From Paludibacteraceae bacterium (GTDB lineage Bacteria; Bacteroidota; Bacteroidia; Bacteroidales; Paludibacteraceae), in assembly GCA_017457295.1 (NCBI GenBank), contig JAFTHS010000042.1, positions 1-35,139 of the forward strand: 35,139 bases of DNA, in the 5' to 3' direction. Under the pieces are notes generated by a model that had not been told where the DNA came from, made no database searches, and saw nothing but the letters and a program-made list of their open reading frames with translations. Of this stretch, positions 681-35,139 are shown one piece after another (position 1 is the stretch's first letter; each line of letters opens with the position of its first letter). The translations under genes and the position numbers were made by a program.

Positions 681-3164
681 ATGAAAAAGACTATTTTATT
701 GGTAATGAGTATATGCCTCAGTGCGCTGGTGCGTGCTGAGGTTTTTCCGTCTTTTGGAGTAGATAGCGTGAGTAGCGAGTTCTTTCGTGAGTGGTATATC
801 AATGGGGATTTAGGACATTATCTGGATAATTATTCGGATTATGTGGTGTATGAAGCGGAAACCACAGGCGAATGGAACTTGGGCGATATGAATATCTTTT
901 CGATTGCAGGCAACTCGTTTCGTCAGAATAAATATTCGCTAAATGGCATGCGCATAGATAGCCGCTATCAAGTGGGCAGTACTATGCTGTATACCAATAT
1001 GTTACGCACGGACTATGTGCTGGATTACCACGAGGGAAAGATTCATTTTACAGATGCCGCCGATCAAAGCCAATCGCTGACACTGAAAGGTAATGCAGGC
1101 AACTTGGGCGGTATATCGCCTGGAACATGCGAGTTGATCAACTTGTTCCACTCATCGGGTGAAGAGCGAACGATGGATAGTCGCCCGATAGAGATGCGTA
1201 ATCATGTGATAGGTGCGGGTAGTGTGGAGGCGAGTTTCGCTATTCCTGCGTATGGCAAACGGTATTATCAACATGCGTACGCTCAATATGGTTCGCGCAC
1301 GCAGACAGCATTTGACCACACAGGTATATCTGGGATGTATGCAAGTCCCTATTATACAGCGCAATTGGATGGCGAACTGCCTATGGCAACGAATAATGTG
1401 CTGGATAAGTTGAACTATTATTTTGTAGCGCAGGGTAGGGGAGATATGTATTCGGAGTTGCTGTATAATCGCAATGAAGTGGCAGAATTTTTAGGCTATA
1501 CGGCTGCAGTGTATGGAAGCAAGACCTTTGCTAATGGTGGTAGACTGGTGGCAGGTTTGAGCTGGGCGTTGAGCGATGTGCAGCACGATAGTTTGTCGTT
1601 TGCTCGCAATCTATTGGACCACGATGGCGAGGCGTTTGACCCATGGTATGCTGATGGTAAGACAAATGAGGCAAGTTTGTCGTTGCAATATGATCAGCGT
1701 TTGTTGCCATGGTTGCGTGTACATGCTTCAGGGTATAACTCTTTTGTGCATTTCAGTCCGACTACAGCGACTTGGAGCAACGATGTGTATATGCAGAGTA
1801 TAGCCGATAAATCGCGTACACAATTATATACATGTCATTGGCAATCAGCGGCTTATATGGCGGGATTGTTGGAGAATGAAGCTATGGTGGTGGCAGAACA
1901 TGAATTGGCGCGTGGACTACGTATTCAAGCGCATTTGGGTGTTTCGTTGGACGGAATACTGTTGCATGGGAAATCAGTGGTAAGTCCGAATTGGCTGGCG
2001 AAGTTTGCCTTGGACTGGAAGCCCAATTGGTGGTTTCAAATGGGGTTGAACCTCTCGCATAATCGTATGAATTACACCATGAACGAGGTGCAATACTTGA
2101 GCAATGATTATATGAATGGCGAGATTCGCTATGCAGATGGCACCTTGCTTGCCACAACGGGAGGCAAATATCATGCCATAGATAAGAACTTATGGGCACA
2201 TCAGCCATCATATGCCGTATTGGATATCCCTATTCGCTTTACTTTCGATAAGCAGTCAAGGCATCAGTTCTCGCTGCTGTCAAGTATTCGCAAGTATTAT
2301 AACATGTGGTTTACCGATTATAGCAATGGCCTGGAGGCGAATATGTTTGAACAAGATGATTTGTACTATTGGCGTGAGGGTGAGAAACATTATACAGTAG
2401 GTCTGCAACCAATGGATTTGATGAGTGGCACTGTGGGTGGACGTACCCCTTATTATATGTCGAACGTGGCAAAGTATTCGTACACGGGCAAGAAATGGTT
2501 CGTTAGTGTATCATGGCAGAGTTATTTGATGGCAGGACTCTCTACGATTGGTAATGGTCCGTTGCACAATAATATCGGTGTGTTGGCAGAGTCAAGCGCG
2601 AATCCGAATGCATATAAAGTGATGAGTTATGGTAGCTTGCCTTATCAAGGAAATTGCCGTTTGAATCAAGATAAGTCTTTTATTTTGCGTTTGCAAGTTA
2701 CCTACAACCCATGCGAATACTTCTCTGTAAGTCTAAATGGAAAGTTCAAAGATGGCCAACCATTTGCTACTTTTGTAGCTAAACCAGTGACCGCAAATGG
2801 CCATACACAAGTAGCATTGTGCGGCAACGATGCAAAAGGAATCAATATGGCCAATGGTGCCTTTGGAAAACGAGAAGATGCGTTCTTCAATTTTGATTTG
2901 CGTATGACAGGCCGTTGGTGGATAAAGCAAATACCTTTCCAATTGGATGTGACGTGCTATAATATCTATGACTTTGGAACAGCATTGACGGAATATGTAT
3001 TTGATGGATACGACCATCCTACATACCCTTATTGGACCAATGATAGAGGAATTGCCACTATGCAAGATAGTCGCACATCCATGTCATTGTGTATTCCCCG
3101 TGGATTGCTCATTAGTTTGCGTATCGGATTGGAGGCGGATAAGCACCATCCACACGCACCATAA
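681..3164 (+). CDS. TonB-dependent receptor-like outer-membrane beta-barrel protein
   Basis: An 827-aa protein with an N-terminal signal peptide (MKKTILLVMSICLSALVRA). There is a plug-like region at about residues 60-150 (FSIAGNSFRQNKYSLNGMRI), followed by a long barrel of alternating aromatic and polar strands. It should sit in the outer membrane. It has no carboxypeptidase-regulatory-like N-terminal domain and no obvious TonB box, so energy coupling is uncertain and the substrate is unknown. The C-terminus is unusual. Such barrels normally end on an aromatic residue (expected here around SLRIGLEF), but this one reads SLRIGLEA followed by eight extra residues. The last 81 bp overlap, tail to tail, the 3' end of the O-antigen ligase gene on the other strand. 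Family assignment rests on overall character only; a TonB-receptor relative is the best guess. Confidence 0.7.
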   Translation: MKKTILLVMSICLSALVRAEVFPSFGVDSVSSEFFREWYINGDLGHYLDNYSDYVVYEAETTGEWNLGDMNIFSIAGNSFRQNKYSLNGMRIDSRYQVGSTMLYTNMLRTDYVLDYHEGKIHFTDAADQSQSLTLKGNAGNLGGISPGTCELINLFHSSGEERTMDSRPIEMRNHVIGAGSVEASFAIPAYGKRYYQHAYAQYGSRTQTAFDHTGISGMYASPYYTAQLDGELPMATNNVLDKLNYYFVAQGRGDMYSELLYNRNEVAEFLGYTAAVYGSKTFANGGRLVAGLSWALSDVQHDSLSFARNLLDHDGEAFDPWYADGKTNEASLSLQYDQRLLPWLRVHASGYNSFVHFSPTTATWSNDVYMQSIADKSRTQLYTCHWQSAAYMAGLLENEAMVVAEHELARGLRIQAHLGVSLDGILLHGKSVVSPNWLAKFALDWKPNWWFQMGLNLSHNRMNYTMNEVQYLSNDYMNGEIRYADGTLLATTGGKYHAIDKNLWAHQPSYAVLDIPIRFTFDKQSRHQFSLLSSIRKYYNMWFTDYSNGLEANMFEQDDLYYWREGEKHYTVGLQPMDLMSGTVGGRTPYYMSNVAKYSYTGKKWFVSVSWQSYLMAGLSTIGNGPLHNNIGVLAESSANPNAYKVMSYGSLPYQGNCRLNQDKSFILRLQVTYNPCEYFSVSLNGKFKDGQPFATFVAKPVTANGHTQVALCGNDAKGINMANGAFGKREDAFFNFDLRMTGRWWIKQIPFQLDVTCYNIYDFGTALTEYVFDGYDHPTYPYWTNDRGIATMQDSRTSMSLCIPRGLLISLRIGLEADKHHPHAP

Positions 3165-4370
3165 GGCAATACCATCGAACATACCCCACATACAGTCAGT
3201 GAGCATATTGAGTGCGTAAAGCGTGAATAACATCATCGCAGATTTACGCGCTCTTTTTTGTGTGAAATATGGAATACTAATCCAAGCGAGTATGAAGAAT
3301 AAAAGTCCAGGAATACCAATCTCCATCCATTCGGCGAGATACTGGTTATGTGCTGCGAATCCGAGTTCGACATGCATATTTAACCCTGCTTCGGCATATT
3401 TTTGTTGCAGATATGGAGTGCTCTGTCCTGCTCCCAAACCATATAGTGAATAATCTTGTGGTGAACCTAATGCAGCTCCCCAAATATTTAATCGCACATT
3501 ATGATCTTCTGCGGTTTCACGAATAGAAAGCAAATCTGTGTAATCAAACTCTTGCATGCGAGGATGCTGAGTCAATGCGAATAATCCTATTCCACACGCC
3601 AATAAAACCAATGCTATTCTATAGCGTATGCGTCGGATAGGAAGTTTATATAATAGCCATATAGTCAATAATGCAACTCCAGATAGTATGGAGGCTCGTG
3701 AACCAGTTGCTAATATGAGCGCAAGCATACTTGTGAGACCAATAATAATGATAATCCATCCTTTTATAGTACCATATTTGCATAATATATCCTTGCGCAA
3801 GTATAGAAGCGCCATCATTCCCATCATCTGGGTGCTACACAAAAAAAGTCGATGCTTTATATAAGATACTTTATCTGCAAAAAACTCTATAGGAAGTTCT
3901 TGTTGTGCATAAATACCAATCGCATAATTAAACGCTTGAGCATTGTATACCCAATATAAGGTGAATGCATATACTCCTGCGGATGCAACACATGATACAG
4001 TCAACACCTTGCAAATTTGTTTCCAATCGTAGTTCTTGTTAACACCCCAAATACCGATAGGAACTAATAATCCAAATGCCATATATCGCTCTAACTGCCA
4101 AGAATATGCATCTTGGTCTGCTGCCCATAGACCAGATATAATCTTCCATAGATACCATATTCCAAACATTATGAATGGCATCATTTTGCGCCAATCTTGT
4201 ACATTAGGTTTTTGCACAAATCTACCTTCTAATAGCCATGTGCAAATCCATATGACACAAGCATAGCGTAAAAATACCTGTGGAAAAGGCAATAATGCTA
4301 CAACTATTAAAAAAAGAATGTAGTTGAGTTGTCCCATTACGGACTGATATTTTTGTAAAAAATTAGTCAT
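3084..4370 (-). CDS. O-antigen ligase / Wzy-type polymerase family membrane protein
   Basis: A 428-aa polytopic inner-membrane protein with about ten to twelve hydrophobic segments, starting near residue 15 (YILFLIVVALLPFPQVFL). A large periplasmic loop carries the Wzy_C/WaaL signature region: GLGAGQSTPYLQQKY, then AAHNQYLAEWMEIGIPGLLF, with the conserved His in the HNxYL motif. Members join polymerised glycan to lipid A-core, to another acceptor, or polymerise repeat units; which of these cannot be told from sequence. The start overlaps the end of the upstream glycosyltransferase-kinase gene by 8 bp, so the two are translationally coupled. It is the last gene of the minus-strand envelope run, and its 3' end overlaps the convergent barrel gene by 81 bp. 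The last ~15 residues (QSDTQTNEQSTGNTQ) are a soluble tail. Confidence 0.85.
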   Translation of the reverse strand: MTNFLQKYQSVMGQLNYILFLIVVALLPFPQVFLRYACVIWICTWLLEGRFVQKPNVQDWRKMMPFIMFGIWYLWKIISGLWAADQDAYSWQLERYMAFGLLVPIGIWGVNKNYDWKQICKVLTVSCVASAGVYAFTLYWVYNAQAFNYAIGIYAQQELPIEFFADKVSYIKHRLFLCSTQMMGMMALLYLRKDILCKYGTIKGWIIIIIGLTSMLALILATGSRASILSGVALLTIWLLYKLPIRRIRYRIALVLLACGIGLFALTQHPRMQEFDYTDLLSIRETAEDHNVRLNIWGAALGSPQDYSLYGLGAGQSTPYLQQKYAEAGLNMHVELGFAAHNQYLAEWMEIGIPGLLFFILAWISIPYFTQKRARKSAMMLFTLYALNMLTDCMWGMFDGIALWCVWMVLIRLQSDTQTNEQSTGNTQ

Positions 4371-5775
4371 ATAAATTTGTTATTCCTTGTTTTATGTGTT
4401 TTCTCCAACGATGGGTGATAATATAATTAATTACAAATTCAGTATCCAATTCCAATTCTTGTGCAAAAGCAGTGCCCATTATGGACAAAGCATCTTTGTC
4501 AATATTGAGTCTTTCAAACATTTTAAGCCCTTTTTTGATAGGAATATAACGATAAAATATGATACGATTAAGGTCAATAATTTCAATCTTACTTCCATCT
4601 TCATTGAAGAGAATATTGCCTCCAGAATAATCTTGGTGGAATATTCCGCGTTTATACAATTCTGCAGAAAAGCATCCTATCTCTTTTAGTATTTGTGTGC
4701 GATTAGGAAATGATTTGTTATGAATCAAATTGTTAAAGGTATATTTGCACTCAGATTGCTTACATACATACCAACTTTGGCGTAGAATACCGATATAGCG
4801 TATTTCTCGATATGCTACAGGTGTCGGAGTAAGACCTGCTATACGTTTCGCATATTCATAACTGCGTTGTGCCTTTGACTTACAAAACCAACCATATATG
4901 ATTCCTCTCCACCAAGAAGGTGTAGTGAACTGCTTAGAAATGAAGCCATTAGAATTGCGTAATATATTTCGCTTTGCATAAATGATTTCTCCTTCATCCC
5001 AATTTACATAATTACCTAAAATCGTTTCGCTGCGGAAGAAATTGATAAAACGCGACCATGAACGGTGGTAATGTAGCGGTCCACCCAAATATTTTTGCAT
5101 ATATGCTGGATGTCGATGATTGATGGCATCAACGATACGTTTCTTTTTTCCTTTAGCAAGGCTACGGCGTGATTTTGCAGAAATGCGATAATAAAAGAGT
5201 ATCTCATCCAGCTTGTAGAACGTACCTCCTAATTCCATCATACTTAACCAGAAATCCCAGTCTTCGCGATATATCTCTTCTTCGCAGTATCCGCCGCATC
5301 GTTCCCAATCTGCTTTGCGATACAATGCTGTGGCGGGAATCATATTTTTTCGTGCAAGTAAGGCATGACTGAATTCTGGTAATTTCCACTCTTTGTTTTC
5401 TGCTCCAAACATCCAGCAACGACAACCAACTACGCGTATACCATCATTATTCTCAATTACTTTTACTGCTTTTTGAATAAATGTATCTGCAATCTTATCA
5501 TCGGCATCTACGGGCAAGATATATGTTCCTTTGGCATTTCGAATTGCTTTGTTGCGGGCTGCTGAGACACCTTGATTTGCTTGTGCTATAACTGTGCACT
5601 CAGGATGATTGGTACAATAATCTTGAGCGATGTTTAGGCTATCGTCTTTGCTGCCATCATCTACCATCACAATTTCAATCGGGCGATAAGTTGAGGCAAT
5701 AATGCTATCCAATGTCTCTTTGAGGAAAGGCGCAGCATTATATATAGGCACTATGACACTAACAAAGGGATTCAT
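4363..5775 (-). CDS. Two-domain protein: GT2 glycosyltransferase fused to LPS/Kdo-kinase-like domain
   Basis: A 470-aa protein from the ATG at 5775. That start forms an ATGA overlap with the stop of the upstream gene; an in-frame ATG at 5808 would only add residues before the first beta strand. Residues 1 to ~240 are a GT-A family 2 glycosyltransferase: SVIVPIYN at 6-13, DDGS at 39-42, the metal-binding DAD at 90-92, and ED at 171-172. Residues ~255-470 look like a protein-kinase-fold sugar kinase of the WaaP/InaA/Kdo-kinase type: candidate ATP lysine K281 (FISKQF), catalytic loop HQDYSGGN with D382 and N387, and a metal-binding D401 in IIDLNR. It probably adds a sugar to an LPS-core-like acceptor and phosphorylates the same or a nearby residue at the inner face of the inner membrane. 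The GT call is firm; the kinase call rests on motifs. Confidence 0.85.
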   Translation of the reverse strand: MNPFVSVIVPIYNAAPFLKETLDSIIASTYRPIEIVMVDDGSKDDSLNIAQDYCTNHPECTVIAQANQGVSAARNKAIRNAKGTYILPVDADDKIADTFIQKAVKVIENNDGIRVVGCRCWMFGAENKEWKLPEFSHALLARKNMIPATALYRKADWERCGGYCEEEIYREDWDFWLSMMELGGTFYKLDEILFYYRISAKSRRSLAKGKKKRIVDAINHRHPAYMQKYLGGPLHYHRSWSRFINFFRSETILGNYVNWDEGEIIYAKRNILRNSNGFISKQFTTPSWWRGIIYGWFCKSKAQRSYEYAKRIAGLTPTPVAYREIRYIGILRQSWYVCKQSECKYTFNNLIHNKSFPNRTQILKEIGCFSAELYKRGIFHQDYSGGNILFNEDGSKIEIIDLNRIIFYRYIPIKKGLKMFERLNIDKDALSIMGTAFAQELELDTEFVINYIITHRWRKHIKQGITNLYD

Positions 5776-10475: not shown

Positions 10476-12109
10476 TATCGAATAATTATTTTCTTTGTTC
10501 CTTGTGTCGTTTTCACTATATATGTACCCTCGGATAGTGCTTCAATCTTTTTTGTAGTCATTTTCTGTCCTAATACATCATAGATAGCTATGATATCGTT
10601 GTTCAACACCACTTCCGAAGTTGCGGTGTTACTGCGTCCTCCTTTGTACTTAAAGGATATAACTCCATTGTTTTCGCTCACTTCTTCGATACTATGGTCT
10701 TTTATTCCTAGATACTCTGTTGCCCCTGCAGGAAACAAATCACTCGCCTTGCCAGTGTATCCATCTTCCGAACTACTAGGTGTCTTCCCATCGGCTTCTA
10801 TCAAATCCACACCCATTCGATTAGATAAATTATTTACGCTGTTGTCACTCCAAGACCATTGATTGTATACTATTTTCGTCAACATTAATCCATGTCCAGG
10901 TAAATACTCATCCCAACCCACTTGTTGGCGATTCTCTAGTAGATAAAAGGTCGTTGGACTAGGGTCGTTACCTTTCAGATTGTGTTGATCGCTGGTCGAA
11001 ATCAGCAACGCGCTATTGCTTTCTTGCAACTCTTCCAACTCTACATCTTCTGCCTCTACAATCAATCGTGGTGTCAACCAACCCATCATAAATCGCTCAT
11101 ATGCCGAGTAAGCGGGTGGAGTATTCATATCATTGTTGTATGGACCATAGTCCAAAATGTCCCAACTTCCTAATGTCTTATGTGTTTGACCTTCGGTAGT
11201 ATACAGGTCAGGCAGTCCTAGTACATGGCTAAACTCATGGCAGAAAGTACCAATGCCAGTATGATGTTTTGTGTAATAGTCCAACTCATTGCCGCAAGCA
11301 TACAAATCCACGTACTTACCATCCACCTTACAGGTAACTCCTGATTCAAAGAGCCAATACGAATGAGGCCAAATAGTATTCGCTGCGCCACCATCTGCTT
11401 CGCCATAACCAGCATAAACTACATACACAAAATCCACATAACCGTCTTTGTCATTATCATACAAACTGAAGTCCACGCTATCATTCACTAATTCGCACGC
11501 CTCTTTTACCATGTCCCAAGGCGCTGCATCAAAGCTGGTAGTTGGGTTATTTTTGCCATAGTAATCCATGTTTTTTCTCACCGTCACTGGACCTACTACA
11601 TCGAATTGCGGACTATATTGTCCATTCGAGGATTCATAGAAATACTGCCATGCAGACCCGTTAGAGGTAACAAAATATTTTCTTCCTCCATACATATAAG
11701 AATAGTCTCTGCTATAGTTTTTCCCTGTCAGCATACTATCTAATTCTGCTTTATTGGTTTCAAATTTCACATCAGCAAAATTCACCAATATCACCAGTCC
11801 GCGTGGAGCAATATTCAGTGGGGTAGCTGCTTTTTGTGCTTGTGCAATGCGACTTGGTGCAGCCATCTGCTTGACTCTAATTTCTTCTGCATTTAATGCT
11901 TCTGTCACTTGATAGAATCCGTTTTTATCTACCTCTAGCCATTCGCCTTTCTCATTGGTTATCCAGCGAAAATGCTCATCGCCATGTTGATACACAGTTA
12001 TTTGCGTGCCATCAGGTTGTGTTTTGACTATCCCACCTCTGCGTGCTGGTACGCCCCAAACGGAACATACTACAGTACAAAACAATATCAATAATCCGAT
12101 TTTTCTCAT
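10475..12109 (-). CDS. Secreted M6-family metalloprotease with type IX secretion C-terminal tail
   Basis: A 544-aa secreted zinc protease of the immune-inhibitor-A (M6) type. Domains in order: signal peptide (MRKIGLLILFCTVVCSVWG); M6 propeptide region at about residues 22-75 with the signatures QPDG and HGDEHFRW; catalytic domain with the zinc motif HEFSHVLGLPD (H291, E292, H295, third ligand probably D301); and a short C-terminal sorting region of about 40 residues (AIYDVLGQKMTTKKI, then GTYIVKTTQGTKKIIIR) resembling type IX (Por) secretion signals. It should cross the outer membrane and act on extracellular proteins; the substrate is unknown. It begins one base after the stop of a 99-aa gene whose product resembles this protease's own propeptide, so the two are almost certainly made together. 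Confidence 0.9.
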   Translation of the reverse strand: MRKIGLLILFCTVVCSVWGVPARRGGIVKTQPDGTQITVYQHGDEHFRWITNEKGEWLEVDKNGFYQVTEALNAEEIRVKQMAAPSRIAQAQKAATPLNIAPRGLVILVNFADVKFETNKAELDSMLTGKNYSRDYSYMYGGRKYFVTSNGSAWQYFYESSNGQYSPQFDVVGPVTVRKNMDYYGKNNPTTSFDAAPWDMVKEACELVNDSVDFSLYDNDKDGYVDFVYVVYAGYGEADGGAANTIWPHSYWLFESGVTCKVDGKYVDLYACGNELDYYTKHHTGIGTFCHEFSHVLGLPDLYTTEGQTHKTLGSWDILDYGPYNNDMNTPPAYSAYERFMMGWLTPRLIVEAEDVELEELQESNSALLISTSDQHNLKGNDPSPTTFYLLENRQQVGWDEYLPGHGLMLTKIVYNQWSWSDNSVNNLSNRMGVDLIEADGKTPSSSEDGYTGKASDLFPAGATEYLGIKDHSIEEVSENNGVISFKYKGGRSNTATSEVVLNNDIIAIYDVLGQKMTTKKIEALSEGTYIVKTTQGTKKIIIR

Positions 12110-12110
12110 G

Positions 12111-12410
12111 TTATTTTTTCTTTTCTTGTTTCACTTTTCTGCACGTCGCCACAATCCGTCCGTCTTTCTTTTTCTTCGCGTAGCAGATATATCCCTTTTT
12201 ATTTTCTTTTACAAGTGTCACACCATCTTCCAGCGTCATCCAATGCTTTCTTTCATCGCCGTGCAATCGCACGTAGATGGTATCGCCATTGGGTTGTACA
12301 CGTTCTATAACTCCCTGATATGCAGGCACTCTCGCTGGTCGTTGCTGCGCCATAGCACCCATTGCCCACACGCTGCAACTTATTGCTAAAATATACATTA
12401 ATCGTTTCAT
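12111..12410 (-). CDS. Small secreted protein resembling a stand-alone M6 protease propeptide
   Basis: A 99-aa protein with a signal peptide (MKRLMYILAISCSVWAMGAMAQ). Mature residues ~24-85 match the prodomain pattern of the neighbouring M6 protease. Shared elements are PAR after the signal cleavage, then G-V-----QP-G--I-V--HGDE----W-T---G, then N-KGY---A. The small protein reads VQPNGDTIYVRLHGDERKHW; the protease has TQPDGTQITVYQHGDEHFRW. It lacks a catalytic domain and ends in a lysine-rich stretch (KKKDGR, then KVKQEKKK). Its stop lies one base before the protease ATG. Roles to consider are a trans-acting propeptide (folding helper or inhibitor) for the protease, or the remnant of a duplicated protease that lost its back end. 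The propeptide similarity is seen directly; the function is inference. Confidence 0.7.
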   Translation of the reverse strand: MKRLMYILAISCSVWAMGAMAQQRPARVPAYQGVIERVQPNGDTIYVRLHGDERKHWMTLEDGVTLVKENKKGYICYAKKKKDGRIVATCRKVKQEKKK

Positions 12411-12420
12411 GTTCTCTAAA

Positions 12421-13191
12421 TTAGCGCGCCGCGCTCTTCACTTTCTTAAACAATTCGCTCGCAAACACAAAATCATTCAACGCCTCATTCTCTGATTGAA
12501 ATATCTCATGCCTACTGCCTTGCCATTCTTTTACGCCATTGCGTAGGAAGACAATGTTGTCGCCAATCTCCATAATGGAGTTCATATCATGGCTATTCAC
12601 GATAGTACAAATGCCATATTCTAGTGTAATGTCTTGAATCAGTTTGTCTATCACCAAACTAGTCTTTGGGTCTAGTCCCGAGTTTGGTTCATCGCAGAAT
12701 AGGTAGCGAGGGTTAAGTGCAATCGCACGAGCAATTGCTACACGTTTCTGCATACCGCCACTTATCTCGCTGGGCATCAAACCATACGCTCTTTCGGGCA
12801 TATCCACACGCGAGAGGCAGAAGCGAGCGCGCTCCACCATTTCTTCTTTGCTCATCTGCGAGAACATCTCCAGCGGATACATCACGTTCTCCTGCACGGT
12901 CATGCTGTCGAACAATGCTGCTCCCTGAAACAGCATTCCCACTTCTCTATGCAACAACCGCACCTCTTTCTCTGCCATCTCCGCCAAGTTCTGTTGTCCT
13001 TGGCGTGTATCAAATATAATCTCGCCAGAATCAATAGTATGAAGTCCAATCATCGACTTCATCAGTACGGTCTTACCTGAGCCAGACTGACCGATGATCA
13101 TATTCACTTTTCCGTCCTCAAAGTCTGCAGAGATATGGTCAAGCACCACATTCCCGTCAAAACTTTTTACTACATCTTTTACCTGTATCAT
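12421..13191 (-). CDS. mlaF: Phospholipid/intermembrane transport ABC ATP-binding protein (MlaF-like)
   Basis: A 256-aa ATPase of the Mla/Ttg2/Mkl type, which keeps outer-membrane lipid asymmetry by moving phospholipids between the membranes. Motifs: Walker A GQSGSGKTVLMKSM, Q-loop LFQGAALFDSMTVQENV, signature SEISGGMQKRVAIARAIA, Walker B YLFCDEPNSGLDP and H-loop NSHDM. The QGAALFDSMTVQEN and SGGMQKRVAIARA wording is diagnostic of the MlaF branch. It follows the permease gene by 24 bp and precedes the 99-aa gene by 10 bp. The usual third partner, the MCE-domain substrate-binding protein MlaD, is not next to it, so it must be encoded elsewhere. Start ATG at 13191 gives the normal N-terminus MIQVKDVVKSFDG. 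Confidence 0.93.
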   Translation of the reverse strand: MIQVKDVVKSFDGNVVLDHISADFEDGKVNMIIGQSGSGKTVLMKSMIGLHTIDSGEIIFDTRQGQQNLAEMAEKEVRLLHREVGMLFQGAALFDSMTVQENVMYPLEMFSQMSKEEMVERARFCLSRVDMPERAYGLMPSEISGGMQKRVAIARAIALNPRYLFCDEPNSGLDPKTSLVIDKLIQDITLEYGICTIVNSHDMNSIMEIGDNIVFLRNGVKEWQGSRHEIFQSENEALNDFVFASELFKKVKSAAR

Positions 13192-18482: not shown

Positions 18483-18511
18483 TTTGCCAACAAAACTTAT
18501 GACTAATTTTG
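18483..18511 (+). promoter_or_regulatory. Bacteroidota-type promoter of the beta-helix/phosphatase gene
   Basis: TTTG (18483-18486), a 17-bp spacer and TAATTTTG (18504-18511) match the TTTG/TAnnTTTG pattern. Transcription would begin near 18518, which rules out the in-frame ATG at about 18484 and supports translation from 18562, where the signal peptide begins. Confidence 0.65.
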
Positions 18512-18561
18512 CAACAAAATCACTTGATTTTATAGCAAAACACACGCAAAATACATGCAAA

Positions 18562-21500
18562 ATGAAACGAATAATTTGTCTTTTTTTCTCCTATTGTGCC
18601 CTACTTCCTCTTTCAGCAGCTAATCATTATGTGGCTGTTTCGGGTAATGATGCACAAGATGGATTATCATGGGCTACTGCCGTATCTACTATCCAAACTG
18701 CCGTCAATGCGGCAGACAAAGGCGATACCGTTTTTGTCTCTGCAGGTGCGTACCAGCAGAGTATTACGCTCAAAGATGGTGTCAATGTCTTCGGTGGGTA
18801 CGATGCCACTACGGGCGAACGCAATGTAGATGCCAACCTTACTATTCTTGATGGCACAACATTGAAAACTCCTTTGGTTATTGCCACCAAAGCCAATACC
18901 AACCCAGTATATGTAGATGGATTTATTTTGCAAAACGCTAACCATACTTCTGCGGGAGGAGCTGCGGTGCTCAAAGCGAATGCGATTCTCAATCATTGTA
19001 CAATTCGCAACTGCTATACCAGCGGCAGCGGAGGTGGAGTGCACAATGCGGGTGTCGTTTCCAACTGCATCATTGAGTTGTGCGAAGCCCTTGGCGCAGG
19101 CGGAGCGGTACACAATGTCGGAGGAGTGGTAGAGAATACTATCATCCGTGGTTGCAAAGGCAATTATGCTGCCATTCGCAACGAAAACAATGGTATAGTG
19201 CGCAACTGCCTATTGCACAACAATGAACCTTCTAATTCAGCATGGCCAAATTCTGGTGGTATCTACAACCCGAGCGGGGTAGTCTATAATTGTACTATGG
19301 CATGCAATTTCGGCAGCCAATATGCGGGCTTCCATAGTGATAATATTGCCTACAACAATCTTATGTGGAACAACCAATCCGAAGAGGGTTTTGCAGATCC
19401 TGCCAATTTTGTTTCTGGAGAAAACACAAAGGCAGGTTCAGGATACAATGCGGCAGACTATTATTTCGAAGCAGAAAATTTCACAGTCAAGTTATCTCCC
19501 GATAATATGGCAACCAATGGCCCTCATTTTGTTGCACCAACCAATTTTGTGGGAGCACCTAAAAATGCTGCTGAGATTGCTGCTATGCGTGCAGCCAATT
19601 TCGCTATTACGGCGGAGTCGCCTGTAATCAACCAAGCCAAGGCAAATACCGATTTGGCATACGATATCGAGAATACTCCTCGTCCTATAGGTTCCCATGC
19701 GGATATTGGATGCTACGAGTACAATCCCAATGCGCCTATTGTAGCTGTTACGGGGGTGCTGTTGAATATGGATACGCTTCATGTTTATACCACAGACACT
19801 GCGCTAATCACCGCTATATTGCTACCTACTAAAGCCACGAATCGCAATGTCGTATGGAGCATTGCAGATACCACTATTGCTCAAGTAGAAAACGGAGCAG
19901 TTATCGGAGTTCGGGAGGGACAAACTACTGTCAGTGTCACTACCGAAGACGGCGGTTTCTCGGCAGAGGCAGTGGTAGTGGTAGAGTTGAAGCCAATCGT
20001 GATTATTCATCCAGAAGTGCTCTTGGCTGATAGTTTATATCGTGTAGAAGATTTCACTATCCCGTCTTATATTCCATTCCTAATTGCTAAGGAGGCTGCG
20101 CGAGATGATTCTACGGAAGTAAACCTGCAAGCATTGCGCGACAAGATTACTCAGCTTTTGCCTTATCAAATGCCATATAATGTGGTCACTAATATCAACG
20201 GAGACCCTACCACACGTATGGCGTTCTGCTGGTTTACCAACGAACGAATGACCGATGGAGTAGTGGAGCTTATGCCTATTTCTGGCGACCAATTGCCTAC
20301 AGCTGATGCCTTTCGTCCTACACTATCTGTGTCTGCTACGCCTACTATCACCAAGCCGCTCAATTATGCTACGTCGCTTTCTGGTATTCTCAAAGCAGCT
20401 AAAATGTCTGCTACGCAAAAATATACCTACGTCAGTCATAAGGCAATCGCAGAAAACCTCTCTCCCAATACCACCTATGCGTATAGGGTGGGAGTAGAAG
20501 GCTACTGGAGTGAAATAGGCAAGTTTACCACAGCTTCAGACAATCAATCTCCTTTCACGTTTATCTATATGACCGATTCGCACATCCAAGACCAAGAGTA
20601 TATCAATGATGCGCGTTTATGTGCAGAGGCCGCTGCCAAAGCAACACCAGAAGCGCGATTCTGTGTCTTTCCAGGTGATTTCGTAGAAACGGGTACCAAT
20701 CGCAATTCGGAATGGGAATGGGAGCGTTGGTTTGATGAGGCACTACGACCCGTTGTGCAGCAAATGCCTATCGTTCCTACCGATGGCAATCATGATGACT
20801 CTAGCAATCAAAACTATACATATCATTTCAATACCGACAACCAGTTCAAAGAGAATGCTAAGGTCAAACCTCAATTCGATGGCACTACCTATTCCTTCAT
20901 GTATGGTGATGTGTTGTTCTTAGTATATTCATTGCAAGATTATTGGAAGGGTACATACAGTTTGTCCACCCTCACTTCTACCTACTTAACCAATGATGTG
21001 GGAAATTGGTTCCGAGAGCAGGTGGCTGCTCACCCAGAAGCAAAATGGCGCATTGCATTAGTGCATAAAAATGTATTCTCGGGCTCTGGGCATCAGGAGG
21101 ATGAGGAAACACCTCTATTCCGTGAGACGATGTTGCCAATATTCAAGGATTGTGAGATAGATCTTGTTCTTCAGGGGCACGACCACTGCTATGAAATTAT
21201 TGGTCCTGTTAATCCTGATACCCGTACTCCTATTCTCGATGCTATTACGGATGTGGAAGAGGTCCCTGTTAATATGGTCAATAATATGACAGGCAAGAAG
21301 GGGGGTACATTCAGCGTGGATGATGGTACATTGTATTTCATCGGAGCTACTTGTGGTACAAAACGCTACAATCCTAATCATAAATTAACGATGGAGGCTG
21401 ATTACGAAAAGCATAAAGTAGAAAACTATTACGATTTATTCACGGGTATGTTTGGGCAACCTGGCAGACCTTCATATTCGTCATTCACTGTAGATGGCAA

Positions 21501-21741
21501 TACGATTACGGTCAATTCGTATAAAGTGTACAAAGATATCGACCCTGTCCTATTCAATACTTTCTATATCAAGCGCACAAAAGAGCATAATTCAGGTGAT
21601 AGACAGGGCCCTATCTCTCTAGAGCAACTCATCCAAGAGAATGGGACGGCCAAAATTATCTATGATGGTTCTATGTTCATTGTTCGTGAGAATATAGCAT
21701 ACAATGCGTTAGGACAGATTGTTTTTGATAAACGTAATTGA
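18562..21741 (+). CDS. Secreted beta-helix / Ig-like / calcineurin-type metallophosphatase fusion protein
   Basis: A 1059-aa exported protein; the start at 18562 fits the signal peptide (MKRIICLFFSYCALLPLSA) and the promoter just upstream. Domains: right-handed parallel beta-helix at ~22-385 (HYVAVSGNDAQDGLSW opening, glycine-rich rungs such as SGSGGGVHN); BIG_2-type Ig domain ~390-476 (VTGVLLNMDTL, then VVWSIADTTIAQVENG); an Fn3-like purple-acid-phosphatase N-domain at ~520-665 (LSPNTTYAYRVG); metallophosphatase ~668-960 with D672/H674 (DSH), D706 (PGDF), N743-H744-D745, H835 and H873/H875 (GHDH). The final ~30 residues (DGSMFIVRENIAYNALGQIV) look like a shortened type IX sorting tail. It probably removes phosphate from, or cuts a phosphoester in, a surface or extracellular substrate, with the helix binding glycan. 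Control by the divergent DeoR-type regulator is likely. Confidence 0.85.
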   Translation: MKRIICLFFSYCALLPLSAANHYVAVSGNDAQDGLSWATAVSTIQTAVNAADKGDTVFVSAGAYQQSITLKDGVNVFGGYDATTGERNVDANLTILDGTTLKTPLVIATKANTNPVYVDGFILQNANHTSAGGAAVLKANAILNHCTIRNCYTSGSGGGVHNAGVVSNCIIELCEALGAGGAVHNVGGVVENTIIRGCKGNYAAIRNENNGIVRNCLLHNNEPSNSAWPNSGGIYNPSGVVYNCTMACNFGSQYAGFHSDNIAYNNLMWNNQSEEGFADPANFVSGENTKAGSGYNAADYYFEAENFTVKLSPDNMATNGPHFVAPTNFVGAPKNAAEIAAMRAANFAITAESPVINQAKANTDLAYDIENTPRPIGSHADIGCYEYNPNAPIVAVTGVLLNMDTLHVYTTDTALITAILLPTKATNRNVVWSIADTTIAQVENGAVIGVREGQTTVSVTTEDGGFSAEAVVVVELKPIVIIHPEVLLADSLYRVEDFTIPSYIPFLIAKEAARDDSTEVNLQALRDKITQLLPYQMPYNVVTNINGDPTTRMAFCWFTNERMTDGVVELMPISGDQLPTADAFRPTLSVSATPTITKPLNYATSLSGILKAAKMSATQKYTYVSHKAIAENLSPNTTYAYRVGVEGYWSEIGKFTTASDNQSPFTFIYMTDSHIQDQEYINDARLCAEAAAKATPEARFCVFPGDFVETGTNRNSEWEWERWFDEALRPVVQQMPIVPTDGNHDDSSNQNYTYHFNTDNQFKENAKVKPQFDGTTYSFMYGDVLFLVYSLQDYWKGTYSLSTLTSTYLTNDVGNWFREQVAAHPEAKWRIALVHKNVFSGSGHQEDEETPLFRETMLPIFKDCEIDLVLQGHDHCYEIIGPVNPDTRTPILDAITDVEEVPVNMVNNMTGKKGGTFSVDDGTLYFIGATCGTKRYNPNHKLTMEADYEKHKVENYYDLFTGMFGQPGRPSYSSFTVDGNTITVNSYKVYKDIDPVLFNTFYIKRTKEHNSGDRQGPISLEQLIQENGTAKIIYDGSMFIVRENIAYNALGQIVFDKRN

Positions 21742-28365: not shown

Positions 28366-31300
28366 ATGAGAACATTTTCTGTTATTTGCATGAGTCTTCT
28401 TTTGGCAATTGCTCCTGCGTTTGCGCAGACGGTTGTAAAAGGAACGGTTACCTCTGCTGACGACGGCATGCCTATGATTGGTGTGAGTGTTGTAGAGCAA
28501 GGTACAACAAATGGTACGGTTACTGATATCGACGGTAACTACGAACTCGAAACAACTAAAGATGCGACAATCCAATTCTCGTACATCGGCTTCAAGACCC
28601 AAACTGCTAAGGCCGCTTCTGTCCTTAACATTATTATGGAGTCTGATGCCATCATGATGGAGGAGGTTGTTTCTTTGGGTTACTCTTCTCTCAAGAAGGC
28701 AGAGTTGTCTTCTGCTGTCGTTACAGTTTCCAGCGAAGCATTGACCGACGTTACTTCTTCGGATATTGGTAACATGCTCCAAGGTAAAGTAGCTGGTGTA
28801 CAAATCACCAACGCAGGTGGTCAACCTGGCGATGCTGCTGAAATTCGCATTCGTGGTACGGGTTCTATCACTGCTTCCAGCGCTCCTGTTTATGTGGTGG
28901 ATGGTGTCATGGGTGGCTCGTTCAACCCTCAAGACGTAGAGACCATCTCTGTGCTTAAGGACGCAGGTGCTACGGGTATTTATGGTGCTGCCGCTGCTGG
29001 TGGTGTCATCGTTGTGACTACCAAGTCGGGTAAGAAAAACGAGAAAATCACTGTGGACGTCAAAGCTACTGCTGGTGCAAAGCAAGCACTCTACAAAAAC
29101 TATCGTATGATGGATTCTGAAGAACTCTATAACTTCCACAAGAAACTCTATTCTAAGAGTCTTTTCGGCGCATTGTATCCTAAGACATTGCTTGAGCAAG
29201 ACTACAACTGGCGAGACGAGTTCTTCCGCACAGGTGTTATTCAAGACTACTACGTTTCTGTAAAGGGTGGTTCAGAGAAAGTAGGTTACTATGCTGGTCT
29301 CAACTACTACGATGAGCAAGGTACACTCATCACCACGGGTATGCAGAAGTTCAGCGCAAACCTCAATCTTAACGCACAAATCACCAAGTGGTTGGATATG
29401 AAGGCCAAGGTTACTTTCACCAAGTCAACGGTAGATTACCCTTCTTCTTGGACTATGCTTGACGATGCGTTCAACAAAATGCCTTGGGACAACCCATACG
29501 AGCTCGATGCTGAGGGCAAATCTACTGGCAAATATTTATATGTAGATAAGAACAAACGTTCTGATAACGGAGAAGATTGGTGGTCTCAAAATACTTGGAA
29601 CTCACTCCACTCTACCTATTATAACTATAGCACATCTAATAACTTCGACTTCAGTGGAATGCTCCAACTCAATGTTCATTTCACCGATTGGTTGAACTTC
29701 TCTACCACCAATACTTTTGGTTCTGGCTACTGGAAATCAACATCTTATGTTGACCCACGTGCTTATGACTCCAGCTATGCAAACGGCTACTTGGAGAACT
29801 CGATTGGTATCAGCAAAAGCTTCGGTACTACTAACATTCTCAAGGCTTCTTACCAATGGGGCGATCACAGCGTAAATGGTATGCTCGGTTGGGAGTGGGG
29901 TACTTGGAAATCTGAGTACACTACCGCTTCTGGTACTGGTATGCCTAACGGCGTAGACGCACTCAATGCTACTTCTCCTTTCGGTGTTAGTGGTTATGAG
30001 ATTCCTGGTGCAAGTTGGGCTGGTTTTATCCAAGCGCAATACGATTATGCAAAACGCTACTTCGTTACTGCTACTTTCCGTGCTGAGGCAAGTTCTATCT
30101 TTGCTCCTGAGAACCGCGTAGGTTACTTCCCATCAGTGGCTGCTTCTTGGTTGATTAGCAACGAAGACTTCATGAAAGACCAAGACGTCGTTTCATTCTT
30201 GAAACTCCGTGCAAGTTATGGTATCACAGGTAACAACAATATCCCTGCTTACAAGTACTTGGCTACTTACGCACTTAGCGCATTGTATCAAAACCAAGTG
30301 GCTGCTACTCCAAGTCGTTTGGCTAACCCTCTCCTCCACTGGGAGACTGCTAATATGGCTGCTGTAGGTATTGACCTCACCTTTATCGACCGCGTTGATA
30401 TGTCTATCGACCTCTACAATACCGACAACACAGGTCTGCTCCTCAACGTACCTGTAGCTCCATCTACTGGTTTCTACGAGGTTACAAAGAACGCAGGCTC
30501 TGTTCGCAACCAAGGTATTGAATATCGCATTGATGCTAATATCATCAACCTTGGCAAATGGTCTTGGGATCTCGGCTTCAACATCGGTTTCAACAAGAAC
30601 CGCGTGACCGATCTTCCTAACCACGAGCCATTCCTCCAAACTGCAAGCTCTGTGAGCCAACAAGTTAAAGAGGGTCAAGATATCTATTCTTGGTACATGA
30701 AAGAGTGGGCTGGTGTAGATCCTGAGAATGGTGACCCATTGTGGTACGTAGTAGATGCTAAGGGCGAATATGTGCTTGACGCAGATGGTCAAAAGACTAC
30801 TACCAACGACTACAACGCTACTCAAGCTATAGTAGTTGGCAAAGCTACTCCTCTCTTCTCGGGTGGTTTGAACACACAAGTTTCTTGGAACGGTATCTAC
30901 CTTCACATCAATACCAACTTCATGTATGGCAACAAGATCTACAACTACACTCGTCAATCTACCGATGCTGACGGTGCATACGTAGGCTACAACCAACTCT
31001 CTATCGACAATTCTATCCAAGGTTGGAGCCGTTGGGAGGAGAAGGGCGACATCGCTACTCACCCAAAACCAATGCTTAATGGTAACAAGAACTCCAATGC
31101 TATCAGCTCACGTTACCTCGAAGATGGATCATACTTCCGTATCAAGAACCTCACCGTTGGTTATGAATTCCCTAAGTCTCTCATCAAGAAGGCTTACATG
31201 ACCCGCTGCCGTATTTATCTCTCTGCTGACAACCTCTGGACGGCTACTAAGTTCTCAGGTATGGACCCAGAGATCACCCTGTCAACTTCTACATATAACC

Positions 31301-31371
31301 TCGCTGGTATGTACTCAAGCAACTATCCTGTTGGTCGCACCTACCAAGCTGGTGTAGAAATTAGCTTCTAA
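28366..31371 (+). CDS. susC: SusC/RagA-family TonB-dependent glycan transporter
   Basis: A 1001-aa outer-membrane TonB-dependent transporter that imports oligosaccharides together with its SusD partner. Order of parts: signal peptide (MRTFSVICMSLLLAIAPAFA); carboxypeptidase-regulatory-like domain at ~22-95 (VVKGTVTSADDGMPMIGVSV, then FSYIGFKTQ); plug domain at ~115-220 with the SusC-type wording LQGKVAGVQITNAGGQPGDA, IRIRGTGSI, PVYVVDGV, and LKDAGATGIYGAAAAGGVI; then a 22-stranded-barrel-sized region ending in an aromatic (GRTYQAGVEISF). All family parts are complete. It lies 19 bp after the GH36-like gene and 67 bp before susD. The susC symbol is used for the family; the glycan is unknown but probably contains alpha-Gal/GalNAc. 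Confidence 0.96.
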   Translation: MRTFSVICMSLLLAIAPAFAQTVVKGTVTSADDGMPMIGVSVVEQGTTNGTVTDIDGNYELETTKDATIQFSYIGFKTQTAKAASVLNIIMESDAIMMEEVVSLGYSSLKKAELSSAVVTVSSEALTDVTSSDIGNMLQGKVAGVQITNAGGQPGDAAEIRIRGTGSITASSAPVYVVDGVMGGSFNPQDVETISVLKDAGATGIYGAAAAGGVIVVTTKSGKKNEKITVDVKATAGAKQALYKNYRMMDSEELYNFHKKLYSKSLFGALYPKTLLEQDYNWRDEFFRTGVIQDYYVSVKGGSEKVGYYAGLNYYDEQGTLITTGMQKFSANLNLNAQITKWLDMKAKVTFTKSTVDYPSSWTMLDDAFNKMPWDNPYELDAEGKSTGKYLYVDKNKRSDNGEDWWSQNTWNSLHSTYYNYSTSNNFDFSGMLQLNVHFTDWLNFSTTNTFGSGYWKSTSYVDPRAYDSSYANGYLENSIGISKSFGTTNILKASYQWGDHSVNGMLGWEWGTWKSEYTTASGTGMPNGVDALNATSPFGVSGYEIPGASWAGFIQAQYDYAKRYFVTATFRAEASSIFAPENRVGYFPSVAASWLISNEDFMKDQDVVSFLKLRASYGITGNNNIPAYKYLATYALSALYQNQVAATPSRLANPLLHWETANMAAVGIDLTFIDRVDMSIDLYNTDNTGLLLNVPVAPSTGFYEVTKNAGSVRNQGIEYRIDANIINLGKWSWDLGFNIGFNKNRVTDLPNHEPFLQTASSVSQQVKEGQDIYSWYMKEWAGVDPENGDPLWYVVDAKGEYVLDADGQKTTTNDYNATQAIVVGKATPLFSGGLNTQVSWNGIYLHINTNFMYGNKIYNYTRQSTDADGAYVGYNQLSIDNSIQGWSRWEEKGDIATHPKPMLNGNKNSNAISSRYLEDGSYFRIKNLTVGYEFPKSLIKKAYMTRCRIYLSADNLWTATKFSGMDPEITLSTSTYNLAGMYSSNYPVGRTYQAGVEISF

Positions 31372-31438: not shown

Positions 31439-33112
31439 ATGAAAAAGATAGCTTTAATAATGGCTCTTGTGGCAGGGGTATTGTTCACTTCTTGTGATCT
31501 CAACTTCTTCCCATCTGATGAGCTCAACTCCGATGTGTTGCTCCAAGATGAAGCAGGAGCGGCATACATCATGGATGGTTGCTATGCATTCCTCAAAGAC
31601 GAGATCGATTTCTTGGGATATGCCAGTGGTAATACTTTCACACGCCACTATTTCCAAATGTCTGAGTTCCCTGCAGACAACACTTGTCTTTCTTCACATA
31701 CTACCGACCCTCTCTACGAGGCTACTGCGTATGCGATGACTGATAACCTCAAAAACGTAGGTACACTCTGGATGGTTGCTTACAAAGCAATCTATATGGC
31801 TAACACCGTTATCACATCTTTCGAGGAAGGCGCATCTGCTGATGGTGACCAACTTCTCGGCGAAGCATACTTCATGCGTGCACTCATGCACCTCAACCTC
31901 GTGACCCTTTATGCGAAACCTTATTCACATGGTCGCGACAATATCGGTATTCCTTTGCATATCTCTACCAGCAACGAGACTATCACTCGCGCTAAAGTAG
32001 GTGATGTGTACGACCAAATCTTGAAAGACTTCACCAAGGCTTCCGAGCTCATGGGGCCTTCTCGTGGCAACAAGGGTTATCCAAGCAAAGACGCTGCACT
32101 CGGTATGCTCTCTCGCGTTCACCTCTATATGGAGAACTGGGAAGCTGTAGTCAACACCGTTAACACCATGCTCGGTGGTGCCGCTCCTGCATCTAAGTTG
32201 GAGAGTGATTTCGTGGCTCTCTTCCCTAATGCTAAGACTGCCAACGAAACGCTCTTCTGCATCGCACACGAGGCTACTGACACACGTGGTCAATCTTCTA
32301 TCGGTTCTATGTATCTCAAAGATGGTATGGGATGGGGCGAGATTTATCCTTCTAACACCCTCCTCTATCTCTACGAGCGTTACCCTTCAGATGTACGTTA
32401 CAGTGGTATCATTCTCCCACAATATTTGGAGGCGGGTACTATGACCGCGTATTTGCCTATCGAAGCACAAGAAGGTGGCATCTCTACAGGTCGTTCCAAT
32501 ATGATTGCTAATGCTACTCCTGATGGCGACAATTACACCTGTACTGTGGACGGAACCAAATACACCATCGAGAAACGTACCATCAATGGCGAATATACCG
32601 AGTATTGGATGAACTACAAAGGCGAGGATTTGCAAGTACGCGTTCACCCTGTAATGCAAAACCGTAAGCAAATTCCTATCTACTACATCAACAAGTTCTC
32701 TTACCAAGATGGCGACCCAATGCTTTCTTCTCCTATCGTTTGCCGCTGGGGTGAGGTGATCCTCAACCGCGCTGAGGCTTATGCGCACATGGGTGGTAAA
32801 GATGCTGAGGCATTGGCTGATGTCAACGTACTCCGTGAACGTGCAGGTATCCCTGCTGAGGGTATGTTCGCGGCTGATAAGATGCACGGTTATGCATCTG
32901 CACTCGATGTAGTGCTTGACGAGCGCCGTCTTGAGTTGGCATTCGAAGGCCACCGCCTCTTCGACCTCATCCGCAACAAACGCACTATCGACCGTCGTTT
33001 CCCTGGTGCACAACCTTGGGAGGTAGTAGAACCTACTTACGAGAAACTCCAATACCCTATTCCTAACAACGAATGGACGGTTAGCGGTATTCAACAAAAC
33101 CCAACTTATTAA
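31439..33112 (+). CDS. susD: SusD/RagB-family outer-membrane glycan-binding lipoprotein
   Basis: A 557-aa cell-surface lipoprotein that closes over the SusC barrel and captures the glycan. Lipoprotein signal: MKKIALIMALVAGVLFTSC with lipidated Cys19. The N-terminal SusD domain has the tetratricopeptide-like helices (AYIMDGCYAFLKDE, then LLGEAYFMRALMHLNLVTLY, the usual RAxxYxxLVxLY-like signature). The C-terminal part contains the standard RWGEVILNRAEAYAHMGG, LADVNVLRERAG, and LDERRLELAFEGHRLFDLIR motifs. Length is typical and no part is missing. It is the last complete gene of the sugar locus; a small lipoprotein gene begins 50 bp downstream but is cut short. The substrate is undetermined. 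Confidence 0.96.
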   Translation: MKKIALIMALVAGVLFTSCDLNFFPSDELNSDVLLQDEAGAAYIMDGCYAFLKDEIDFLGYASGNTFTRHYFQMSEFPADNTCLSSHTTDPLYEATAYAMTDNLKNVGTLWMVAYKAIYMANTVITSFEEGASADGDQLLGEAYFMRALMHLNLVTLYAKPYSHGRDNIGIPLHISTSNETITRAKVGDVYDQILKDFTKASELMGPSRGNKGYPSKDAALGMLSRVHLYMENWEAVVNTVNTMLGGAAPASKLESDFVALFPNAKTANETLFCIAHEATDTRGQSSIGSMYLKDGMGWGEIYPSNTLLYLYERYPSDVRYSGIILPQYLEAGTMTAYLPIEAQEGGISTGRSNMIANATPDGDNYTCTVDGTKYTIEKRTINGEYTEYWMNYKGEDLQVRVHPVMQNRKQIPIYYINKFSYQDGDPMLSSPIVCRWGEVILNRAEAYAHMGGKDAEALADVNVLRERAGIPAEGMFAADKMHGYASALDVVLDERRLELAFEGHRLFDLIRNKRTIDRRFPGAQPWEVVEPTYEKLQYPIPNNEWTVSGIQQNPTY

Positions 33113-33162
33113 TAGACAATCAATCAACAACAATTTATAAACATTTTTAATAATCGATTATT

Positions 33163-33267
33163 ATGAAGAAATTTAAATTTGCACTTATGTGCGCTGCCGC
33201 TTTGGCATTTATCGCTTGTGAACCAAAGAACGGACCAGAAGGTGAAGGTGAAGGTGAAGGTGAAGGT
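33163..33267 (+). CDS. 5' fragment of a SusE/SusF-position surface lipoprotein, cut at a sequence junction
   Basis: Only about 35 codons look native: a lipoprotein signal (MKKFKFALMCAAALAFIAC) with lipidated Cys19, then EPKNGPEGEGEGEGEG coded by GAAGGT hexamers, and a stop-free run-on. The position directly after susD and the signal make a SusE/SusF-like or other surface glycan-binding lipoprotein likely, but no diagnostic domain remains. Downstream of ~33,267 the same frame stays open to 34080 but reads the antisense of a foreign acyltransferase gene, with no protein-like content. The truncation comes from the join, not from a stop codon. Confidence 0.6.
33238..33267. repeat. Five tandem GAAGGT hexamers at the composition junction
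   Basis: Five exact GAAGGT units run from 33238 to 33267. The last unit lies in an inverted repeat GTGAAGG (33260-33266) / CCTTCAC (33276-33282) with a 9-nt loop. Gene content, GC level and promoter type all change here, so the repeat is the probable point of joining. Confidence 0.85.
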
Positions 33268-33666
33268 AAACACGTCCTTCACAAGGAACTGGGGCGAATA
33301 GTGCAGCTTCCACGGGATGGCCACGAGGAAAAGCATCGCCAGCGTCACAAAGTAGAAGGAGGGAACCACGCGCATGATTCTTCTGCGGTAGAACCACGTT
33401 CTGTCGGGTATGGGATCGCCCTCGGACATGGAGCGGGCGTAGGGCAGGAACAGCAGGAACGCGCTGAGCAGTATGGTACCGTCCACCGGCATGTAGCCCG
33501 AACGCACCAGAAAATCCAGCGAGACCCCTCCGATATAGGGCGTCAGCCAGCTCTGCTGCCAGAAGTGATACCAGCTGACGATAAAGACGAGAATCACCCG
33601 CAGGCCGTCCAGCTCGGGAATGCGGCGGCTCGAGGGCAGATAGGGCTTGCGGGACAAGGGGATCAC
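33268..33666 (-). CDS. Acyltransferase 3 (OafA/YrhL-type) membrane protein, N-terminal part only
   Basis: About 130 native residues remain of an integral membrane acyltransferase of the kind that adds acetyl or other acyl groups to surface polysaccharides. The family signature is present: RIPELDGLRVILVFIVSWYHF (first helix and catalytic-type His), then GYMPVDGTILLSAFLLFLPY and WFYRRRIMRVVPSFYFVTLAM. After about VKDV the reading frame runs into the GAAGGT repeat and becomes FTFTFTF, so the back two thirds are absent. The furthest start is GTG at 33666, but the AAGGAG at 33668-33673 is only one base away; TTG at 33657, ten bases from it, may be the true start. It is divergent from the GH13 gene and clearly foreign to the Bacteroidales part. 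Confidence 0.8.
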
Positions 33667-33687
33667 GCTCCTTCACAGCATGCCTAC

Positions 33688-33716
33688 AGTATAGCAGAGG
33701 AAAATGCCAGCGTCAA
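33688..33716 (-). promoter_or_regulatory. Sigma-70/sigma-A-type promoter of the acyltransferase gene
   Basis: On the minus strand TTGACG (33716-33711) and TATACT (33693-33688) are separated by exactly 17 bp, with AAGGAG further downstream. This promoter form is normal in Bacillota and Proteobacteria and not in Bacteroidota, supporting a different source for this segment. Confidence 0.75.
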
Positions 33717-33799
33717 ACTGAATCCGCACCGGGCAGGAATCCGGCTTCCCCGCGTCAAACCTTACCGGGGTGCAATACCCGTGAAAGGAAGCGAAAGCA

Positions 33800-35089
33800 A
33801 TGGCTTTGAATACCGATATCCGTCTGCGCAATCAGGTGATATACTCTGTCTTTGTCCGCAATTACAGCAGGGAGGGCACCTTCCGCAGGGTACAGGAGGA
33901 TCTGGACCGCATCAGGTCTCTGGGCGTGGATATTATCTGGCTGATGCCCATTCATCCGCTGGGCGAAAAGAACCGCAAGGGCTCGCTGGGCAGTCCCTAC
34001 GCTATCCGGGATTACCGGGCGGTAAACCCCGAATTCGGCACAATGGAGGACTTCCAGGCGCTGGTGGAGGCGATCCATGACCGGGGGATGAAGTGCATCA
34101 TCGACGTGGTGTACAACCATACCGCGCCGGATTCATGGCTGCGGGAGCATCATCCGGAGTGGTTCTACCGAAAGCCTGACGGCAGCTTCGGCAACCATGT
34201 GGGCGACTGGTGGGACGTGATTGATCTGGACTACAGTCACCGGGAGCTGTGGGACTACCAGATTGAGACGCTGAAGATGTGGGCGGAAATCGTGGACGGC
34301 TTCCGCTGCGACGTGGCGACCATGGTGCCCCTTGCCTTCTGGCTGGAGGCGAGGAAGCAGGTGGAGGCGGTGCGTCCCGGCTGTCTGTGGCTGGCGGAAT
34401 CGGTAGAGCCGGAGTTCATCTGCGCGCTGCGGGAGCAGGGGCTGTGGGCGTCCTCGGACAGTGAGATCTATCAGGCCTTCGACATGGCCTACGATTACGA
34501 TATCTGGGGCGAGTATACCAAAGCCCTTACCGGCGAGGGCACGCTGCAGGCCTATCTGGACAGGGTGAACCTGCAGGAGGCGATTTATCCCGCCAATTAT
34601 GTGAAGCTGCGGTGCCTGGAGAATCACGACCGCATTCGAGCCGCGGCGCTGATTCCCGATGAGCGCGCCCTGCGCTGCTGGACAGCCTTTGCCTATTTCC
34701 AGAAGGGCGTTACGCTGATCTACAACGGTCAGGAGGTCTGCTGCGAGCACCGGCCCAGCCTGTTTGACAGGGACACCGTTCCGTGGAACACCGGGCGGGA
34801 TCTGTCCGGGCTGATGCGCCGCCTGTACGCCATCCGTCAGGATCTGTTGATGAAGGACGGCGCCTACAGCGTGCGTGCGGCGGGGCATGACGACGTGATT
34901 GTGGCGGAACACCGCTGCGGAGGCGAGCGGCTGATCGGCCTGTTTGCGGCGAAGGGTCAGGCCTGCAGCGTGAAGGCTGACGTGCACGACGGACGCTACG
35001 TCAACCTGATCGACGGTCAGAGCGTGGCGGCGGAGCAGGGCGTGGTAATGCTGCGCGGCGAGCCGGTGATCATTCGCATTGAGGGGTAA
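33800..35089 (+). CDS. GH13 alpha-amylase-family glycosidase (cytoplasmic)
   Basis: A 429-aa alpha-glucan-active enzyme without a signal peptide, so probably cytoplasmic and acting on imported malto-oligosaccharides. All four GH13 conserved regions are present: DVVYNHT (D102, N106, H107), GFRCDVATM with nucleophile D171, LWLAES with acid/base E200, and LENHD with the transition-state Asp277. The barrel opening IYSVFVRNYSREGTFRRVQE and the SPYAIRDYRAVNPEFGT segment are classic for the family. A short C-terminal beta domain follows (LIGLFAAKGQACSVKADVHDG). AAAGGAAG at 33784-33791 serves as ribosome site. GC-rich codons (CTG, GGC, CAG) differ from every Bacteroidales gene before 33,240. Subfamily, and so exact substrate, is not resolved. 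Confidence 0.9.
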   Translation: MALNTDIRLRNQVIYSVFVRNYSREGTFRRVQEDLDRIRSLGVDIIWLMPIHPLGEKNRKGSLGSPYAIRDYRAVNPEFGTMEDFQALVEAIHDRGMKCIIDVVYNHTAPDSWLREHHPEWFYRKPDGSFGNHVGDWWDVIDLDYSHRELWDYQIETLKMWAEIVDGFRCDVATMVPLAFWLEARKQVEAVRPGCLWLAESVEPEFICALREQGLWASSDSEIYQAFDMAYDYDIWGEYTKALTGEGTLQAYLDRVNLQEAIYPANYVKLRCLENHDRIRAAALIPDERALRCWTAFAYFQKGVTLIYNGQEVCCEHRPSLFDRDTVPWNTGRDLSGLMRRLYAIRQDLLMKDGAYSVRAAGHDDVIVAEHRCGGERLIGLFAAKGQACSVKADVHDGRYVNLIDGQSVAAEQGVVMLRGEPVIIRIEG

Positions 35090-35091
35090 AC

Positions 35092-35123
35092 AAAAAGAAG
35101 GAAGCTGCAGCTTCCTTCTTTTT
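35092..35123 (+). terminator. Intrinsic terminator of the GH13 gene
   Basis: A perfect 32-bp palindrome (arms 35092-35107 and 35108-35123) gives a GAAGGAAGC/GCTTCCTTC stem with a TGCA loop, preceded by A residues and followed by TTTTT. It begins 3 bp after the amylase stop and could work in both directions. Confidence 0.9.
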
Positions 35124-35139
35124 CTTCATTACAGCCCTT

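Follow-up and report, generated by a model that had tools for sequence, protein, structure and literature searches.

Inter-genomic chimeric contigs are known from short-read metagenome assembly, and the portion of a review that concerns them describes single contigs that combine two organisms joined at common short words (PMC7299287). In that portion, the organisms are closely related species and the words are common through sequencing errors (PMC7299287). The contig described here appears to share this build, but its putative parents are far apart, and the word they have in common reflects the likeness of two low-complexity coding tracts. The contig can also be compared with a SusCD-type polysaccharide utilisation locus, in which genes for SusC, SusD, a SusE-position lipoprotein and a glycoside hydrolase follow one another; the same order is found here.

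The window we analysed is the entire contig JAFTHS010000042.1 (C38), 35,139 bases long, from a 2.19 Mb draft genome (G000) of 145 contigs with 94.8% completeness and 0.66% contamination. We are nearly certain that C38 is a chimeric contig. Its native part runs from base 1 to about 33,265 and is assigned to Bacteroidales because of its SusCD genes, and its last 1.87 kb most likely come from an unrelated Clostridia species. A scan of the window for tRNA genes found none.

An earlier note had described an abrupt change in composition at the join, and GC content, tetranucleotides and codons all bear this out. GC content is 0.437 left of the join and 0.601 to its right, while overlapping 1,869-base chunks of the left part (34 in all) span 0.367-0.485. 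By tetranucleotide composition the right arm lies 0.68 away from the left centroid, whereas no left chunk of this size exceeds 0.363 (34 chunks, leave-one-out); from the Clostridia parent's flanking DNA the arm is 0.218 away. Codon choice changes in parallel. Glutamine is encoded by CAA in 32 of 34 instances in the SusC gene and 15 of 15 in the SusD gene but in none of 15 in the amylase gene of the right arm, and leucine by CTG in 2 of 66, 0 of 48 and 33 of 37 instances, respectively. Smaller signals proposed for the right side and the join fared less evenly. The promoter-like TTGACG-17-TATACT is present on the minus strand (33716-33688), although our scan gives about 1.0 such site per shuffle. 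The terminator proposed at the right end corresponds to a self-inverted hairpin with a T-run (35089-35126), located by a self-inverted match, which is absent from the terminator-scan list; C38 ends 13 bases past it. The GTGAAGG/CCTTCAC inverted repeat is also there, but the intact Clostridia parent carries the same repeat, so we dropped it as a mark of the junction.

On the left, the native locus comprises a SusC/RagA TonB-linked outer-membrane transporter gene (28366-31371, plus strand; TIGR04056, 772 bits, above cut-off) and, adjacent to it, a SusD/RagB lipoprotein gene (31439-33112, plus strand; PF07980 and PF14322, both above cut-off). A SusE-position lipoprotein gene follows on the same strand and is cut at the join after its first 36 codons (33163-33270), in line with the roughly 35 that had been estimated. 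Searching the own genome with the join region located the true continuation: window positions 33134-33270 are 98% identical to the end of a second contig, C42 (22178-22314, minus strand). Read from that end, C42 has the lipoprotein gene from its beginning, through a repeat tract of its own in which one hexamer is GACGGT, to the last of its 258 codons, so that an intact SusE-like gene, which the earlier note had suggested looking for, does exist in the same assembly. The two alleles are distinguished by two bases that lie before or within the tract. The next gene in C42 encodes a lipoprotein-like protein with a DUF4874 domain. Within the own genome the SusD gene has a single DNA-level match, on C38 (16 of 16 candidates scored), leaving no other SusD gene for C42 to follow.

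Gene order in congeneric genomes points the same way. We compared nine loci, drawn from the six best other genomes by SusE protein and three by SusD DNA; the latter are three of the four best genomes, G103 being left out. SusC, SusD, SusE-position and DUF4874 genes are consecutive in seven of the nine, and in the other two, whose contigs start inside the SusD gene (L119) or the SusE gene (L121), the remaining order agrees. Identity of the SusE-position gene across the nine loci is 35-62%. In one genome (G064) three more C42 genes follow, with protein identities of 97, 99 and 93%; another C42 gene, C42g05, is absent from that row. Given the overlap, the intact gene, the single SusD gene and the conserved congeneric order, no other continuation of C38 is as well supported as C42. 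The earlier advice not to read the SusE-like gene and the DNA beyond it as one locus needs one correction: the gene is a true member of the locus, and the DNA from about 33,265 is foreign. With C42 placed after C38, nothing unusual is seen relative to other SusCD-type loci, the one difference being that the 258-aa SusE-position lipoprotein (L002 835-1608, minus strand) matched no Pfam or NCBIfam model at E 0.001. Matches to this protein, some of them weak, occur in 10 of the 40 relatives searched.

Several observations concern the surroundings of the reconstructed locus. Between 17502 and 33112 and on C42, the SusCD genes lie beside genes for a DeoR regulator, a GatZ/KbaZ-like protein, a PfkB kinase, an AgaS-like sugar isomerase (below the curated cut-off), an amidohydrolase and a melibiase-like hydrolase. 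These neighbours suggest use of a galactosamine or galactose-type glycan. Further along C42, a 694-aa protein (reverse complement 10614-12695; L004) matches SusE-position genes over residues ~57-249 and DUF4874-type genes of relatives over residues 265-694, a fusion hinting that the separate SusE-position and DUF4874 proteins work together. The window also encodes a large protein with Ig-like and purple-acid-phosphatase/metallophosphatase domains (18484-21741), and a C42 gene (8713-10521, reverse complement) has near its start a stretch that by eye resembles it.

The right arm (33265-35139, plus strand) is collinear with positions 4466-6340 of L005 (JAFURI010000141.1), which belongs to a draft genome of a Clostridia species whose label reads roe deer rectum, with 3 differences in 1,875 bases. 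It holds an acyltransferase-3 N-terminal fragment (33268-33666, minus strand) and a complete GH13 alpha-amylase family gene (33800-35089, plus strand; PF00128, 108 bits; L005 5001-6290). The amylase protein matches JAFURI010000141.1 at 100% over the best segment, and the next best match among the best 80 of 570 confirmed loci is at 69%. For the acyltransferase, about 133 codons are left (33666 down to about 33268), close to the ~130 given before, and an intact gene, which the earlier note had also proposed looking for, is present in the Clostridia assembly, where the open frame continues past the join (L005 2540-4867, minus strand). The L005 protein covers positions 2-324 of the 326 in the acyltransferase profile and lies above the Pfam cut-off, whereas the window fragment alone falls below it. 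The acyltransferase region is also present, at 72-77% identity, in 13 of 17 further genomes searched from the Clostridia genus. In L005 no stop codon separates the acyltransferase frame (2540-4867) from an M29-type peptidase (PF02073), for which a ribosome site of its own can be seen by eye; across the 92 loci searched, the peptidase was seen only in L005 and its twin L128, the sequences of the other homologues having short flanks. SusD-SusE DNA was not found in the Clostridia genome, a search that had no positive control for that query, although the arm query was answered there.

Each side of the join thus matches a different genome that continues beyond it, C42 and congeners on the left and L005 on the right. 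Draft genomes do contain misplaced contigs, and C38 might on that ground be a correct contig in the wrong bin. We regard such a binning error as having next to no chance of being the whole explanation: misplacing a contig cannot give it two parts that match two different genomes, both of which run on beyond the join.

The two parents meet in coding repeats. The five GAAGGT hexamers that had been reported at the join are present (33238-33267, plus strand) and encode the Gly-Glu linker that follows the lipoprotein signal; on the minus strand, the corresponding tract in the Clostridia genome encodes the end HLTFTFTFW of the acyltransferase sequence. Both genes are cut in a low-complexity tract, as the earlier note had remarked, because each parent carries its own copy of the repeat in coding sequence. 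At the join (GAAGGT)3 has the same orientation in both parents, and neither strand of the left 33.27 kb or of the 11.3 kb of L005 has it anywhere outside these two tracts. Window and L005 have in common an exact 21-base word, CCAGAAGGTGAAGGTGAAGGT (33235-33255, plus strand; L005 4439-4459). The longest common word in 50 simulated pairs of the same first-order composition was 13-16 bases, in a model that leaves low-complexity coding tracts outside its scope. The breakpoint itself is GGTA (33265-33268), found at the same place in the C42 allele and in L005.

A rival reading is a real recent transfer: a Bacteroidales strain would have taken up the Clostridia fragment by microhomology at the GAAGGT tract, with the C42 strain keeping the intact gene. 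The two-base difference between C38 and C42 does imply that more than one allele was sequenced, and near-identity of the arm to a gut species is what a very recent transfer would leave. Yet C38 and C42 would each need a SusD gene as left neighbour, and the genome yielded a single copy; the contig ends within the arm, with no return boundary seen; and the two genes of the arm, an acyltransferase fragment and an amylase, are neither of them mobility genes. In the own genome the arm lies on C38 only. We also searched 178 congeneric genomes, the own genome included, with positions 33238-34100 and scored two candidates in each. Some match was found in 41, and beyond C38 these were mostly to the conserved amylase start (67-75% identity). 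A few others span 28-47 bases (81-97%), and three of these are the repeat; none of the matches outside C38 exceeds about 145 bases. The arm was thus in none of the 177 other congeneric genomes, nor in any of 40 relatives (up to 11 candidates scored in each), of which nine gave matches, all at the amylase start (68-76%). IMG/VR held no exact 32-base match to the junction, which means little for bacterial DNA. On this evidence a transfer is highly improbable, and the earlier preference for a chimeric contig over a real recent transfer is supported. Equally improbable is its more elaborate form, in which a minority Bacteroidales strain would have captured the Clostridia fragment by microhomology with the help of slippage, and low-complexity lipoprotein linkers would act as capture points for foreign DNA.

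How the chimera would have arisen is a separate matter from whether C38 is one. A read, or a path taken by the assembler, may have switched genomes at the short identity while a mixed gut metagenome went through sequencing or assembly. Strain variation in the Bacteroidales tract, where the C38 and C42 alleles differ, would perhaps have aided the switch, and the chimeric arm would then have been binned with the long Bacteroidales part. MEGAHIT 1.1.1 starts from a word size of 21 bases. One project used that version for co-assemblies of each gut region (PMC8199421), and, from its isolate name and sample label, L005 seems to belong to this project. The near-identity of the arm suggests that G000 was drawn from that sample set or one like it.

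The exact bases of the join set a limit on the simplest form of this explanation. Between the 21-base word and GGTAAACACG, the window reads GAAGGTGAA where L005 reads CAGGTG, so that 6 bases of L005 stand opposite 9 bases of repeat. A pure crossover at the 21-base word was rejected as a source of this sequence, since it would have kept CAGGTG. A crossover at the common word characterises simple graph collapse rather than every chimera, and here the join departs from it; a chimeric read, a repeat indel or an unsampled allele is also needed. The misfit therefore bears on how the chimera formed and not on whether C38 is one. One candidate for the additional step is a Clostridia allele that naturally has the extra repeats and lacks His-Leu. 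The acyltransferase search of 92 loci matched nine (L131-L139) besides L005 and its twin L128, and L005 and the nine homologues, when aligned, keep His-Leu/Phe before Thr-Phe-Thr, residues that are lost across the join; such an allele is accordingly unlikely.

Within the chimeric explanation, the molecule may already have been hybrid before assembly, through PCR or ligation in the library together with repeat slippage. A join made from the known alleles keeps only GGTA, without the CAGGTG of L005, which fits such an origin, and graph collapse of the known alleles alone would not yield the observed join. Against it, a single chimeric molecule would have low depth, and assemblers usually prune such paths. 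We consider this origin a serious contender, at somewhat under even chances.

Taken as a chimera, the junction is most likely an artefact without biological meaning, neither a real feature nor a gene transfer. The GH13 amylase and the acyltransferase fragment (33,265-35,139) should not be credited to the Bacteroidales species, and this segment should not be taken for an inter-phylum transfer. For one draft genome, the record is corrected to a reading order of C38 followed by C42. Beyond that, the join illustrates a plain route to false transfers: the GAAGGT codons of a Gly-Glu lipoprotein linker read as Phe-Thr codons of a membrane protein on the opposite strand, and for this reason unrelated genomes can have some 20 bases in common at such a linker.
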